DNA of 7,292 bases from a bacterium (GTDB lineage Bacteria; CSSED10-310; JAJRTK01): positions 1 through 7,292 of the forward strand of contig JAJRTK010000361.1 in NCBI GenBank assembly GCA_024278345.1. The letters run 5' to 3'. Below are positions 1,729-7,292 of this stretch, one piece after another. A model generated the notes under the pieces. It made no database searches. It worked only from the letters and a program-made list of their open reading frames with translations, and had not been told where the DNA came from. A program made the translations under genes and the position numbers. Within the stretch, counting starts at the first letter, position 1; every line of letters begins with the position of its first letter.

Positions 1729-4700
1729 TCATGGAAGGAGAGTCGCCACCGGCGCGTCGGAACCTTCCTTCTCCAGCTTCACGGCAAGGGCCATGAGCTC
1801 CGCGGTCCTGGACATGAAGAGCTCCCTGGACAGGGCGCCGGATTCCAGTTCCCGGAGCAAGCGGAACTGAGCGGCGCGGTCGATATTCCCGAGGCCGGCC
1901 TTGCTCTGTAGCATCCGCCAGTTCTTCCTTCGCTCGACGCAAAAGAGGACCATGTGACGGCTGATACCCACGGGGTGGAGTTGCCCATCGTCCCCCAGGA
2001 CGCGGGTCCATGAGCCGTCGGCGGGGATGAAAGAGCGATGACTGGGATCGGTATACCGCCGCCGCACCACATCGTTTTGGGTGATCCGGGGGAGCAGATC
2101 CTCCAGGGAGGGAAGGCGTTCCCGCCCATGGGCGTCGATCTTCTGGAAGTGCCGGCGGAAACGGGCCTCTGTCCGCGCCCAGTGAACGACGGTGTAGCTG
2201 TACCGCTCTCTGGTGGCCTTGACGGTCACCTGATGCCAATCCCGGTTCAGACTGGGATTGCCCTTCAGAGAAAGGCATTCGCCATAAGTCTCGCCCTTCT
2301 GGGCGTCGAAGACGAACTCCGGCATTCCCCGGGCATCCCGGATCCGCTGCGCCTGGATGGTGGCGTGGTCATCCGGCACTCCGTGCTCGGGCTGACAGGT
2401 TGTGAAAGCCTGGATGAAGGCTGTCCCCCGATAGGCAAGACCATCCAAGAGAGCGCGGAAGAGGCTCGCGGAGTTGGCCATGGATACCTGGGCGACGAAG
2501 GGACTTCCATGGCCACTTATCAGGGCCAAAGCCACCTCCTTCTTCTCCGTGAGCTTCCCCTGAGTCGCCGCGCCAAACTGGTTCATGTCGAACCCGCCTG
2601 GCATCACCGAGCTGTCGGAGTTCTGACCGCCCGTATTGGAATAGACCTGGGTGTCGAGTAAAAGCATCTGGAGGTTCGGGCGATTCTGGAGTGTCGCCTT
2701 GGAGACGTTCTGGAAGCCGATATCCCCAAAAGCCCCATCACCTCCGATAGCCCACACCTTGGGAAGCTCCTGCACTTCCCGATCCGTCATGAGAGCATCG
2801 GTGAAGTGGGTGAGATCCCAGTAGTCCCGGTCCGTCAGCCTCTTCACGTCCACCAGCGCCTTTCCCAGTCGCTCCGGAATGACGGATCGCCTGGCGTGAT
2901 CCACAATGAAGCCCTCAGCCATGAGCCAACCGATGGTGGCGCCGTCCTGGAATAGAGAGTTGATCCAGGGGTAGGGATGGGGGTTGTTGGGATGGGTAGA
3001 GCCATAAACCGTGTTGCAGCCCGTGCTCGCCGTCATGCCCATCACCGACATTCCGTTCCAACGACCGCCCTCCGTCGTCTGTAGATGACGGTGATTGTAG
3101 GCGTCGACGCGGAGCACCTGAACCAGCGAGCCCACAAGCTCGGCGTCCCCCTTCTGGAGATGCTGAGCCATGACCTCCTCTGTATCGGCATCATCGACCC
3201 CGCCGTGCCCCAGGATCGTGTGGAGCATCGTCTTCCTCCACAACTTCCAAGCGCCCTCGTCCTCCTTCCGCAATCGCTCCAAGAGACCCACGCCCTCGGA
3301 CTCCAAGCGGTCCGCCAGCTTTTCCAGCCTGGCAGATCGCTCGTGGTAGAGCGGACGCATGAATGCCTCGGTGATGGTGGCCACAGCCCGAAGAATCGTC
3401 TTCTCCCCACACCCGGCGCAGGCCCCGTCACCAGAAAGCAAGGCCTGATAATTGCTCTGCACCATCAAATGGTACTGGAGCACCGCGGCCCGAGACTCCA
3501 AGGGATTCGAGGGGTCGTATTTGCCCAAGAACTTCCCCGGAGTATCCGGAAGTAGGTTCAAGAACTCCACGGCACTCTGGTGATCGGCGTTGATCTGCTC
3601 CGTTTCTTCCACCATGACCAGCGCGTCTTTGTCGCCGCACTCGGTGGCGCACTCGCCGCATCCCTTGCAAAGATCGCTGACGAAGATGGAAAAGATCCCG
3701 CCGGCTCCGGGGTTCTTCTTCTCGGCGCTCTTGAAGATCTGGGTCGTCTTCCCATAGGCCGCCGGCAACCGCTCCACCACGGGCCGAATCTGGCCCAGCG
3801 CCTCACGAAGAGCCGACTCATCCCCATAAGCAAGAGAGTCTCTTGTCAGCGCGTCAATCTCCGCCATGAGCAGCTTCGGGAATGGCTCGTGGGCCTCGCC
3901 CCGCTTCTTCCCCACCTCCTGGCGCATCCTTTCCCGAACGGACGCCTCCAGTTTGCCCACATCTTGGAGAAACCGCGCCCTCACTGGCTGCGAGCTGACA
4001 TAGTACCGGAAGATCGTCGATAGGATTGTGGACAGATCCTGAGCCGTGTTGGGGAGCGCCGTGTCAGGGCAAGAAGTGATGCAGTCCATGCACTGGGTGC
4101 AGTTCTCCGCCACGAAAAGGGGGACCTGCCGCCTGGCGCCATACTTGCTTACCGTCTTTCCCGTCGCCGCGGCCATGACGCCAGTTGCGGCCCGGGGGGT
4201 TGCCGGCGTGTGATAGCCCAGACCAGACCGGAACTCCCGGTCATAGTCCGACAGCGAAAAAAGAGGAACCAGCGGTCGAGGCTCCAGACCTTCCGATGAC
4301 GAGATCGAAACGCTGCTGGGATGGCAGTGGCCTTGCCCTCCAAAAGGTCGAGGCTCCAGACCTTCCGATGACGAGATCGAAACATCTTCCAAGGGGATGA
4401 AGATTTCCCCTCGCATGGAAGAGCGATCGGGAGCATCCACGGGACCGTAGTCCACGGATCTCACCTGGCCGAACCCCTCCCGCATCACCGTCATGTTCGA
4501 CTCCACCACAGCGGAACCGAAGCGGCCAAACTTGTGGTCGTACTGGTGCCGCACCGTGGCCAAAAACTCTTCCTTGGGAATGTTGTAGTCCTGCAAGAAG
4601 GAAGAAACCCGGAAAAACGCTCCCAAGAAGGCGTTCCCCTGCATCCGGTATTGGAGATCCTCCCGCTCCGTCGCCGCCTGGGCAATGGCAAACCCGTTCA

Positions 4701-6552
4701 AGACGAAGAGCCGGATCCCCTTGTGGATGATCTCCTGGCGGTATTTCAAGGGAATCCGCGTCCAAACCGCCCGGTCATCCGTCTCCGAGGATTCCCAGAC
4801 GAAAGCGCCTCCCTTCTTCAGACCCACCAAGGGATTGGTGTGGGTGAAGATCTTCGGGTCACAGCAGAGTACGACATCCACGTGCTGGAGATCGCAGTTC
4901 ACCCGGATCTTCTCGTCGGCCATCACAAGGAAATAGTTCGTCGGGGCGCCCTTCTTTTCCGACCCATATTTCGGGTTGGCGCTAATGTGGAGAACCGACT
5001 CTCCCGGCTTCGCCTCCGGGTGATCCCTCCGAGTAACATAATTGCCCATCGCCCCCAACACGCCGCCCAGGTTCTTCCCGGTGGTGATCATCCCCCAGCC
5101 GCCGATGGAATGAAGGCGCACGGCAATGGCGCGGTCCGGCAACAGGCTAGGCCGATCTTCCGAACAGACCGCGTAAGGATGATCGATCCCCACGTAGAAA
5201 AAACTCGCTCCGTCGGCGGCGCGCTTCCCGTCCTGCCGCCCTTGTCGGCCCGTGACAAACTCCCAGGCTCCCAGAATCCCCTCCGGCCGGAAATCCCGCG
5301 ATCCAAGCCCATACACTCCGTGGAAAATCCGCGGCAACCGATCTTGCTCCAGGCTCGGCAATTCGGGGTAGGCCAGCGTCCTCGAATTCTCCAGCGCCTT
5401 GGCAAGCGCCGTCCGGATGTCCCGCGTCATGGGACCCTCCCCCGAAAGCTGATCGTCGATCCGCTCCAAGACAGCCACGTTCGTCTTCCCAGCCAACGCC
5501 TCAATGATGGCTGCCTCCGGGAATGGCCGCAGCACGTTGAGATGGATCACCCCAACTTCCTCGCCGGTCCTGGCCCGTATGAAATCGATGGCCGCTTCAA
5601 TGTTCTCCGCCGCGGAGCCCATACAGACGAATACCGTGTCGGCTCCTTGGCAGTTGTACTGGGAAATCAAGCCGTACCGACGGCCCGTCAAACGAGCAAA
5701 CTCCTCGTACGACTCCTCCAGGAACCCAAGGATCGGCTCCACAAAGTTGTTCCGCCGAGCAGCCACACCCTGCATGTAGTGTTCCTGGTTCTGAACCGAC
5801 CCCAAAAGCGCCGGAGCCTGCAAATCGAAACAGACGGGAACACGCCGCCGCCGGGGCCCGAAAATCGCCCGCTGACCCTCCGTGGGACAGTCGATCATCT
5901 CCTCCGGACGACCCAAAAACTCCCGGATCAAACCCGATTCCGGCCGAAGAAAAGTCCGCTCCAGGTGCGACGTCAAAAACCCATCCTGAGCATTCATCCC
6001 CGGAGTCAAGCTCTTTTCCGTCACCCGACGCAAGATCAATGCCTGATCCGACGCCTGCTGCGCATCCTTGGAATAAAGAACGATCCAACCCGTGTCCAAA
6101 GCCAAATAGACATCGTCATGACCGCAATGCACGTTCAGAGCATGGCGCGTCAGTGCCCGAGCCGCCACCTCCAGAACCATAGTGGACAACTTTCCCGGAG
6201 CATGGTGGTACTGCTCGATTCCGTAGGCAATCCCCTGACCCGACGTGAAGTTCACCACCCGCTTGCCAAGCAGAGAATAGGCAATGGCCCCCCCCTGCGC
6301 CGCATGCTCGCCTTCCGTCTCGATGGCAACCTTGGCGTTTCCGAACGCATTCAGCTCTCCCCGGGCGAACGAAAGCTGGAAATGTTCCCCCTGCTCCGTC
6401 GAAGGCGTGATGGGATAGAAGATCCCCGCATCCGCGATGCGAGCCTCAGTGTAGTAGGCCACCAGCTCATTACCGGTGGTCGTGATGGGAATTCCAGTGT
6501 ACTTGGGACTCTTCGCTCCAGCCTCTTTCACGCTGGGGGAAATAGCGGTCAT
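1729..6552 (-). CDS. nifJ: Long single-chain pyruvate:ferredoxin oxidoreductase-like protein (NifJ/PFOR family)
   Basis: Likely a cytoplasmic enzyme that oxidatively decarboxylates pyruvate or another 2-oxoacid with CoA, reducing ferredoxin or flavodoxin. Domain order follows NifJ (1607 residues, ATG start): N-terminal pyrimidine-binding domain with YPITPST at 46-52; domain II with GSAAENIEAAIDF and LRPFP at 312-345; gamma-like domain with IGGWGMITTGKNLGG near 483-497; two 4Fe-4S motifs, Cys818/821/824/828 and Cys962/965/968/972; C-terminal TPP domain with GDGAFGDIGF and DTQVYSNTGGQ near 1271-1309. The four proximal-cluster cysteines are present at 1045, 1048, 1179 and 1386. Classic enzymes have about 1170-1200 residues. 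The extra length lies between the two ferredoxin motifs, between Cys1048 and Cys1179, in a C-terminal tail after about 1400, and in a CRISPR-like in-frame insertion near 724-760. Substrate preference cannot be read from sequence. The gene is apparently monocistronic here. Confidence 0.9.
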   Translation of the reverse strand: MTAISPSVKEAGAKSPKYTGIPITTTGNELVAYYTEARIADAGIFYPITPSTEQGEHFQLSFARGELNAFGNAKVAIETEGEHAAQGGAIAYSLLGKRVVNFTSGQGIAYGIEQYHHAPGKLSTMVLEVAARALTRHALNVHCGHDDVYLALDTGWIVLYSKDAQQASDQALILRRVTEKSLTPGMNAQDGFLTSHLERTFLRPESGLIREFLGRPEEMIDCPTEGQRAIFGPRRRRVPVCFDLQAPALLGSVQNQEHYMQGVAARRNNFVEPILGFLEESYEEFARLTGRRYGLISQYNCQGADTVFVCMGSAAENIEAAIDFIRARTGEEVGVIHLNVLRPFPEAAIIEALAGKTNVAVLERIDDQLSGEGPMTRDIRTALAKALENSRTLAYPELPSLEQDRLPRIFHGVYGLGSRDFRPEGILGAWEFVTGRQGRQDGKRAADGASFFYVGIDHPYAVCSEDRPSLLPDRAIAVRLHSIGGWGMITTGKNLGGVLGAMGNYVTRRDHPEAKPGESVLHISANPKYGSEKKGAPTNYFLVMADEKIRVNCDLQHVDVVLCCDPKIFTHTNPLVGLKKGGAFVWESSETDDRAVWTRIPLKYRQEIIHKGIRLFVLNGFAIAQAATEREDLQYRMQGNAFLGAFFRVSSFLQDYNIPKEEFLATVRHQYDHKFGRFGSAVVESNMTVMREGFGQVRSVDYGPVDAPDRSSMRGEIFIPLEDVSISSSEGLEPRPFGGQGHCHPSSVSISSSEGLEPRPLVPLFSLSDYDREFRSGLGYHTPATPRAATGVMAAATGKTVSKYGARRQVPLFVAENCTQCMDCITSCPDTALPNTAQDLSTILSTIFRYYVSSQPVRARFLQDVGKLEASVRERMRQEVGKKRGEAHEPFPKLLMAEIDALTRDSLAYGDESALREALGQIRPVVERLPAAYGKTTQIFKSAEKKNPGAGGIFSIFVSDLCKGCGECATECGDKDALVMVEETEQINADHQSAVEFLNLLPDTPGKFLGKYDPSNPLESRAAVLQYHLMVQSNYQALLSGDGACAGCGEKTILRAVATITEAFMRPLYHERSARLEKLADRLESEGVGLLERLRKEDEGAWKLWRKTMLHTILGHGGVDDADTEEVMAQHLQKGDAELVGSLVQVLRVDAYNHRHLQTTEGGRWNGMSVMGMTASTGCNTVYGSTHPNNPHPYPWINSLFQDGATIGWLMAEGFIVDHARRSVIPERLGKALVDVKRLTDRDYWDLTHFTDALMTDREVQELPKVWAIGGDGAFGDIGFQNVSKATLQNRPNLQMLLLDTQVYSNTGGQNSDSSVMPGGFDMNQFGAATQGKLTEKKEVALALISGHGSPFVAQVSMANSASLFRALLDGLAYRGTAFIQAFTTCQPEHGVPDDHATIQAQRIRDARGMPEFVFDAQKGETYGECLSLKGNPSLNRDWHQVTVKATRERYSYTVVHWARTEARFRRHFQKIDAHGRERLPSLEDLLPRITQNDVVRRRYTDPSHRSFIPADGSWTRVLGDDGQLHPVGISRHMVLFCVERRKNWRMLQSKAGLGNIDRAAQFRLLRELESGALSRELFMSRTAELMALAVKLEKEGSDAPVATLLP
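4274..4311 (-). repeat. 38-bp direct repeat, second copy in the coding direction
   Basis: Identical over all 38 bases to the copy at 4346-4383. It encodes residues 748-760 in the same frame as the first copy, then continues into PLVPLFSLSDYD of the PFOR chain. Confidence 0.85.
4346..4383 (-). repeat. 38-bp direct repeat, first copy in the coding direction
   Basis: Begins GTTTCGATCTCG on the minus strand and ends CTCGACC. It encodes residues 724-736 of the PFOR protein. A short imperfect hairpin (TTCGAT pairing with ATCGGAA, one bulge) lies in its first half. Confidence 0.85.
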
Positions 6553-6946: not shown

Positions 6947-6986
6947 CAGCGGCACAAGACTGTGGCATGCGGGCCGCCCGGCCCGC
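6947..6986 (+). repeat. 40-bp direct repeat, copy 1
   Basis: Matches 7160-7199 at 39 of 40 positions, with the single difference at 6976 (G) versus 7189 (T). It begins CAGCGGCACAAGACTGTGG and runs into the palindrome at 6965-6990. The copies start 213 bases apart. Confidence 0.85.
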
Positions 6987-6990
6987 ATGC
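6965..6990. repeat. Perfect 11-bp-stem palindrome
   Basis: Arms GCATGCGGGCC and GGCCCGCATGC enclose a GCCC loop. The element forms the second half of the 40-bp direct repeat and looks like a REP-type intergenic palindromic element. There is no T-run after it. Confidence 0.75.
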
Positions 6991-7021
6991 ACCATCCCGC
7001 CCCAAAACCCAATACCGCGGC
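6985..7021 (+). repeat. 37-bp imperfect direct repeat, copy 1
   Basis: Begins GCATGCACCATCCCGCCC and matches 7130-7166 at 33 of 37 positions. It is interleaved with the 40-bp repeat family, so the block is a mosaic of related units. Confidence 0.7.
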
Positions 7022-7049
7022 TCCTTCCACGCCCCCGGCAGCGCGCGCG

Positions 7050-7064
7050 GGCCGGGAGACCCGC
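7050..7064 (+). repeat. 15-bp repeat in inverted orientation, copy 1
   Basis: GGCCGGGAGACCCGC is repeated exactly at 7112-7126. Its reverse complement closely resembles the core of the palindromes at 6965-6990 and 7182-7199, so it appears to be a diverged inverted member of the same family. Confidence 0.6.
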
Positions 7065-7111
7065 ACGCCACGGTCCCTTTCCCCAAGCTTCTTCACGCCC
7101 ACAGCAGCGCA

Positions 7112-7126
7112 GGCCGGGAGACCCGC
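7112..7126 (+). repeat. 15-bp repeat in inverted orientation, copy 2
   Basis: Exact copy of 7050-7064, 62 bases downstream, also followed by an ACGC-containing stretch. Confidence 0.6.
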
Positions 7127-7129
7127 CAC

Positions 7130-7166
7130 GCATGCACCATCCCGCCCAAAAAACCAATCCAGCGGC
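7130..7166 (+). repeat. 37-bp imperfect direct repeat, copy 2
   Basis: Partner of 6985-7021 at a distance of 145 bases. It leads directly into the second 40-bp repeat. Confidence 0.7.
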
Positions 7167-7199
7167 ACAAGACTGTGGCATGCGGGCCTCCCGGCCCGC
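7160..7199 (+). repeat. 40-bp direct repeat, copy 2
   Basis: Partner of 6947-6986. Its palindromic end has arms GCGGGCC and GGCCCGC with a TCCC loop (7182-7199) and stops only 6 bases before the first CRISPR repeat. Confidence 0.85.
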
Positions 7200-7205
7200 G
7201 GAGTC

Positions 7206-7292
7206 GTTTCAATCCCCTCACCATCGGGGATGGTCTGCAGACTGGTTTATGCAGACCCAGTCCATCTGCTCAGGTTCGGGCGGTTTCAATCC
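7206..7292 (-). CRISPR. Edge of a CRISPR array, cut by the window end
   Basis: A probable 37-bp repeat (7206-7242) starts GTTTCAATCC and ends TGCAGAC. A 40-bp spacer (7243-7282) follows, then GTTTCAATCC again at 7283-7292, where the window ends. The repeat has an internal inverted repeat, ATCCCC (7212-7217) with GGGGAT (7226-7231). Repeats that start GTTTCAAT are usually transcribed from the other strand, giving crRNAs with the common ATTGAAAC 5' handle. On that basis transcription runs right to left and this is the leader-distal end. Only 10 bases of the second repeat are visible, so repeat length is inferred from the 77-base period. Type cannot be assigned without cas genes; the handle is common in type I and III systems. 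Confidence 0.75.

Follow-up and report, generated by a model that had tools for sequence, protein, structure and literature searches.

Results

The window analysed here is one whole contig of 7292 bp (C291; JAJRTK010000361.1 of assembly GCA_024278345.1) from an uncultivated bacterium (GTDB lineage Bacteria; CSSED10-310; JAJRTK01), whose genome is represented by 6.06 Mb in 550 contigs and is 88% complete. It carries a gene for pyruvate:ferredoxin (flavodoxin) oxidoreductase (PFOR) and, within that gene, a structure resembling a minimal array of clustered regularly interspaced short palindromic repeats (CRISPR). The PFOR frame is open from the ATG at 6552–6550 to the stop at 1729 and encodes the Pfam domains POR_N, PFOR_II, POR, Fe-S (Fer4) and TPP_enzyme_C, in this order. 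Inside this frame a 38-nt direct repeat occurs twice with 100% identity (4274–4311 and 4346–4383, start-to-start distance 72), separated by 34 unique bases. An earlier note on this DNA had described two perfect 38-bp repeats around 34 unique bases in a frame of 1607 codons, which the repeat search, the frame and the Pfam search confirm, and had proposed a 'neo-CRISPR' made by stray spacer integration. The features, with their boundaries as refined below, are:

1729–6552, minus strand: PFOR gene, single-chain, 1607 codons, intact; 80 orthologues
4254–4262, plus strand: GCGAAAAAA, native PFOR coding sequence; it recurs within the final 20 nt of the array leader on contig C71
4275–4311, plus strand: first 37-bp copy of the putative duplicated target, oriented as a CRISPR repeat (GTC...GATCGAAAC); base 4274 adds one identical base
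4312–4346, minus strand: putative spacer, 35 nt (34 nt if the repeat is read as 38 bp), from a class III adenylate/guanylate cyclase gene
4347–4383, plus strand: putative duplicated target, copy 2, 37 bp, same as copy 1
7206–7292, minus strand: genuine CRISPR array of the host, truncated where the contig ends; repeat 7206–7242, 40-nt spacer 7243–7282, partial repeat 7283–7292

A perfect 38-bp repeat within 7.3 kb excludes chance. The unit is not tandem, as the 34 middle bases are unlike either flank, and in the seven own-genome sequences that were read, perfect repeats of at least 25 nt at 48–100 nt spacing were confined to true CRISPR arrays and the PFOR locus. Across 0.98 Mb around the orthologues, comparable repeats occurred only in obvious short-period tandem arrays. 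The earlier note had divided the added DNA into 38 + 34 = 72 bp; the total of 72 bp, or 24 codons, stands, and the division is better drawn at 37 + 35. The G at 4346 fits a leucine codon of the cyclase frame described below, so that this base would belong to the insert; on the simplest reading the target duplication is 37 bp, the spacer is 35 nt and the 38th identical base is a chance identity. Since the two copies are still identical, the event would be recent. No other copy of the 38-mer and no further array of it were found in the assembly (up to 3 mismatches per 19 nt) beyond chance-like single matches; phages and plasmids gave nothing convincing and viral contigs no exact match.

Comparison with orthologues suggests that the segment was gained. 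The set comprises 80 proteins at 56–63% identity, mostly from Acidobacteriota with some from Planctomycetota, Bacteroidota and others, plus one obtained by whole-genome search; the nearest genomes that the genome searches turned up were members of the same phylum. All 80 of 80 lack the 24-codon segment, as the earlier note had predicted, and neither the duplicated peptide nor the insert occurs in them or in the additional protein. Neither the duplicated segment nor the middle is a conserved element of the PFOR family in these orthologues, again as anticipated. The segment sits in the linker that connects the POR domain to the Fe-S region and that, at 55 residues, is the longest observed (29–54 residues in the orthologues). 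Less 24 codons, the linker would measure 31 residues and fit the family, the five closest orthologues having 29–34. Removal of the full 110-bp repeat–spacer–repeat, by contrast, breaks the frame and leaves about 18 residues, below all 80 orthologues (minimum 29), so that most probably one of the copies belongs to the native gene and the gain was 72 bp. In a predicted structure of the linker and its neighbours, the insert falls in a very-low-confidence segment (residues 242–367 of the fragment), which is compatible with a flexible linker or loop and proves little, given that the same segment includes the Fe-S region.

A search for the origin of the spacer, as the earlier note had suggested, gave no match in viral contigs and one in the organism's own genome: positions 4312–4337 agree at 25 of 26 nt with the start of contig C271 (G000:C271:1-26; E 6.8e-5). 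The middle segment is thus DNA of another gene of the same genome. The sole mismatch is at a third codon position, ACT/ACG, both threonine and hence synonymous in the cyclase frame. On one side the match stops precisely at a repeat boundary and on the other at the end of C271. The start of C271 encodes GKATAIPAAERRWVTVLFSDIKAFT, with which the catalytic domain of a class III cyclase begins (Pfam Guanylate_cyc, E 2e-4, slightly short of the curated cut-off); paralogues of it exist elsewhere in the genome. Read in the cyclase frame, the 35 bases from 4346 down to 4312 on the minus strand give LLEGKATAIPA, whereas the PFOR frame gives FGGQGHCHPSS. A cyclase from the same phylum (G003:C152) has LLAGKVPDLPASERRWVTVFFSDL (LLAGKVPDLPA) at the corresponding place, with LLAGK against LLEGK, and the part of the insert beyond the end of C271 looks likewise like cyclase; the source, if extended upstream of the C271 start, should read CTTTTGGAG ahead of GGCAAGG. 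In its source gene the sequence forms part of a normal cyclase linker, and in PFOR it sits where the linker is not conserved, so that transfer would have run from cyclase to PFOR. The cyclase source gene is itself cut after about 140 bp by a dispersed element (at 139–255 within G000:C271 1–255), which is found again on C17 (94%) and, as shorter matches, on C219 and C88.

The target also resembles a CRISPR repeat of this host, as the earlier note's idea of a repeat-like stretch requires. The array at the window end, absent from that note, has the 37-bp repeat GTCTGCAGACCATCCCCGATGGTGAGGGGATTGAAAC of the C71 array; C71, which also carries a Csm3/Cas7-like gene, has four copies of it, and C377 has one degenerate copy. 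Against this repeat, the duplicated 37-mer has 21 of 37 identities ungapped and in exact register. A likeness of this level occurred at 96 of 1.95 million positions in other genomes (4.9e-5 per position and strand) and at about 18 of 219,000 in the organism's own DNA (~8e-5), which gives ~1e-3 after correction for 12 comparisons. The C71 and window-end arrays are like the PFOR locus in the 37-bp repeat length, the GTC start (GTC...GATTGAAAC in the C71 and C280 repeats, GTC...GATCGAAAC in the 37-mer) and the G|GTC junction; they differ in that the repeat and the 37-mer agree at only 21 of 37 positions, in having multiple repeats and 38–41-nt spacers, and in possessing a leader of their own. In the whole 6.06 Mb, the pattern GATYGAAAC-N50-80-GATYGAAAC is found only in the C71, C280 and window-end arrays and at the PFOR locus, and a reversed control pattern has no match anywhere in the assembly. 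The 9-mer GCGAAAAAA upstream of the target is possibly a leader-like context; a 9-mer in common with the 40-nt C71 leader lies upstream of 0.36% of positions, and this one was noticed after the fact.

The host encodes both Cas1 and Cas2. Cas1 is present on four contigs: C296, with a type I-C set that also includes Cas2; C280, with I-B Cas7; C243, as Cas1e; and C377, with a III-B set (Cas10, Cmr3, Cmr4, Cmr6) and a primase-polymerase. All three multi-repeat host arrays (C71, C280 and C296) have 37-bp repeats, and their spacers measure 38–41 nt in C71 (type III-associated), 37 nt in C280 (I-B) and 33–34 nt in C296 (I-C). Cas1 of I-B, I-C, I-E and III-associated kinds within a single genome (C243, C280, C296, C377, C71) makes for an unusually rich CRISPR–Cas set. 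On C377, the primase-polymerase (2917–4962; PADLOC PrimPol, Pfam AEP-TOTE) stands beside Cas1 and the III-B effectors, with the lone degenerate repeat at C377:5324. We considered a reverse-transcriptase–Cas1 as the maker of a transcript-derived spacer and rejected it: the long frame on C377 is Cas1 after an out-of-frame reading of PrimPol, and no reverse-transcriptase domain was found in it. Separately, the last C71 spacer (7781–7819) and the second C296 spacer (9255–9288) have 25 nt in common, AAATTCCGGCGGGCGAAAGCCCGAT. As the 21-nt core of this sequence is absent from the rest of the assembly, the type III-associated and type I-C arrays seem to have drawn on one foreign element.

Discussion

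We consider it likely that the PFOR locus records one natural off-target spacer integration by a host Cas1–Cas2 complex, so that the earlier proposal of stray integration is supported by the orthologues, the source of the insert, the host Cas1 and arrays, and the likeness to the host repeat. A prespacer of about 35 nt, taken from the chromosomal cyclase gene of this strain or of a near relative, would have been joined to both ends of a 37-bp stretch of the PFOR interdomain linker that resembles the host CRISPR repeat and has the repeat-like end GATCGAAAC. Before insertion the site would have held a single GTCGAGGCTCCAGACCTTCCGATGACGAGATCGAAAC, in a locus shorter by exactly 72 bp, and gap filling would then have copied the 37 bp to yield repeat–spacer–repeat. 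The net gain would be 72 bp; as these form 24 codons without a stop in a length-variable linker, the frame of the enzyme would have been kept, and we infer that the enzyme still works. Cas1–Cas2 is implicated as the presumed agent because a repeat-length duplication around a spacer-length fragment is the type of product it makes. The tie to this host lies in the agreement of the duplication with its repeat length, the ends, the in-register identity and the junction described above.

Several findings weigh against this explanation. In the collections searched, no close relative has a single VSISSSEGLEPRP-like copy that would represent the empty site, and at 56–63% identity the linker sequences are unrelated. 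The match to the source is limited by the contig end, and no protospacer adjacent motif was apparent; on the spacer strand, the source is flanked 5' by GCTCG. The resemblance to the host repeat is modest, as some hundreds of sites genome-wide would score equally well, and gapped alignment scores are less striking than the in-register ungapped comparison. The 38-mer forms no hairpin (z -0.17), and Rfam gives no CRISPR-DR hit for it with E values up to 5, although even the true C71 array is matched only weakly. At 35 nt the spacer fits neither the 38–41 nt of the type III-associated array nor exactly the 33–34 nt of I-C or the 37 nt of I-B, and its length singles out no one CRISPR system. All of the evidence comes from one assembly.

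The same product, a duplication with a captured chromosomal fragment, could also arise independently of Cas, through two nicks staggered by about 37 bp, whose repair by end joining or template switching filled in the overhangs and captured a piece of the cyclase gene; no Cas enzyme was observed in action here. This route leaves unpredicted that the duplication has the 37-bp length of the host repeat, that it resembles that repeat in register and that the insert is of spacer length, and we regard it as unlikely. Far less probable is that a ready-made 110-bp repeat–spacer–repeat from an array of another repeat type entered PFOR through recombination or with a mobile element. The 38-mer is CRISPR-like at its 3' end and the genome holds several arrays, but 110 is not divisible by three, the residual linker would fall short of every orthologue, and no convincing further copy of the repeat turned up in the assembly or among phages, plasmids and viral contigs. 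Just as improbable is an origin without any link to CRISPR, by ordinary duplication and divergence of the linker or as an assembly artefact. Orthologue linkers do vary widely in length, but identical copies indicate a recent event, and yet the middle is cyclase sequence and not a diverged flank; an artefactual path is improbable given that the cyclase contig has different sequence beside the common 26 nt and lacks the 38-mer. This last possibility is largely refuted already.

If off-target integration is the origin, the locus would encode PFOR protein on one strand and carry a leaderless one-spacer mini-array on the other that is probably inert as CRISPR. It has two repeats and one spacer with native coding sequence on both sides, and we see no sign that it works: it has no leader beyond that coding sequence, forms no repeat hairpin and is antisense to the PFOR gene. 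Most probably the insert is a tolerated scar of recent date. We consider it unlikely that such integrations naturally supply new protein sequence, with the lineage keeping the 24 residues stably, the enzyme using or tolerating them and the antisense mini-array still recognised by host Cas proteins, for example for further integrations.

Off-target spacer integration is known in vitro and in overexpression strains, and natural cases in which source, target duplication and host repeat are all identified are few. Nivala, Shipman and Church (2018, Nat Microbiol 3:310) reportedly described off-target integration giving 'neo-CRISPR' loci, and are said to have proposed natural cases in Yersinia pestis and Sulfolobus islandicus. 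The PFOR locus is like such loci in having one spacer, a flanking duplication of repeat length and a target outside any array that resembles the native repeat. It differs in that the event is in frame in a long metabolic gene of an uncultivated bacterium and that the spacer can be traced to a chromosomal gene of its own genome. PMC9456107 and PMC11788318 attribute non-canonical integration in vivo to Nivala et al. 2018. Cas1–Cas2 of Streptococcus thermophilus integrates off-target in vitro at leader-repeat-like sites, with a ruler that sets the second cut (PMC6895254); in contrast to our case, that system is type II-A, the targets were plasmids and the off-target products were likely half-site. 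Ectopic acquisition within arrays has been reported for the type II-A systems of S. thermophilus and S. pyogenes (PMC7999890), in which Cas1–Cas2 likewise integrates away from the leader end, sometimes guided by leader-like sequence, although those events are confined to an existing array and the PFOR locus lies outside any.

What sets the present locus apart is its in-frame coding location and traceable source. It suggests that CRISPR adaptation can mutate the chromosome of its own host, here in a central metabolic gene, and leave a trace that can still be read. A repeat-length duplication at a repeat-like site, around a spacer-length fragment from the same genome, is a searchable signature with which the frequency of such events could be measured across genomes.

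Additional observations

The PFOR gene is adjoined at 637–1704 by a gene of the sodium/bile acid symporter family (Pfam SBF), which we take to be arsenite-efflux-like. Between the start of PFOR and the CRISPR array, positions 6947–7200 contain several GC-rich direct and inverted repeats.
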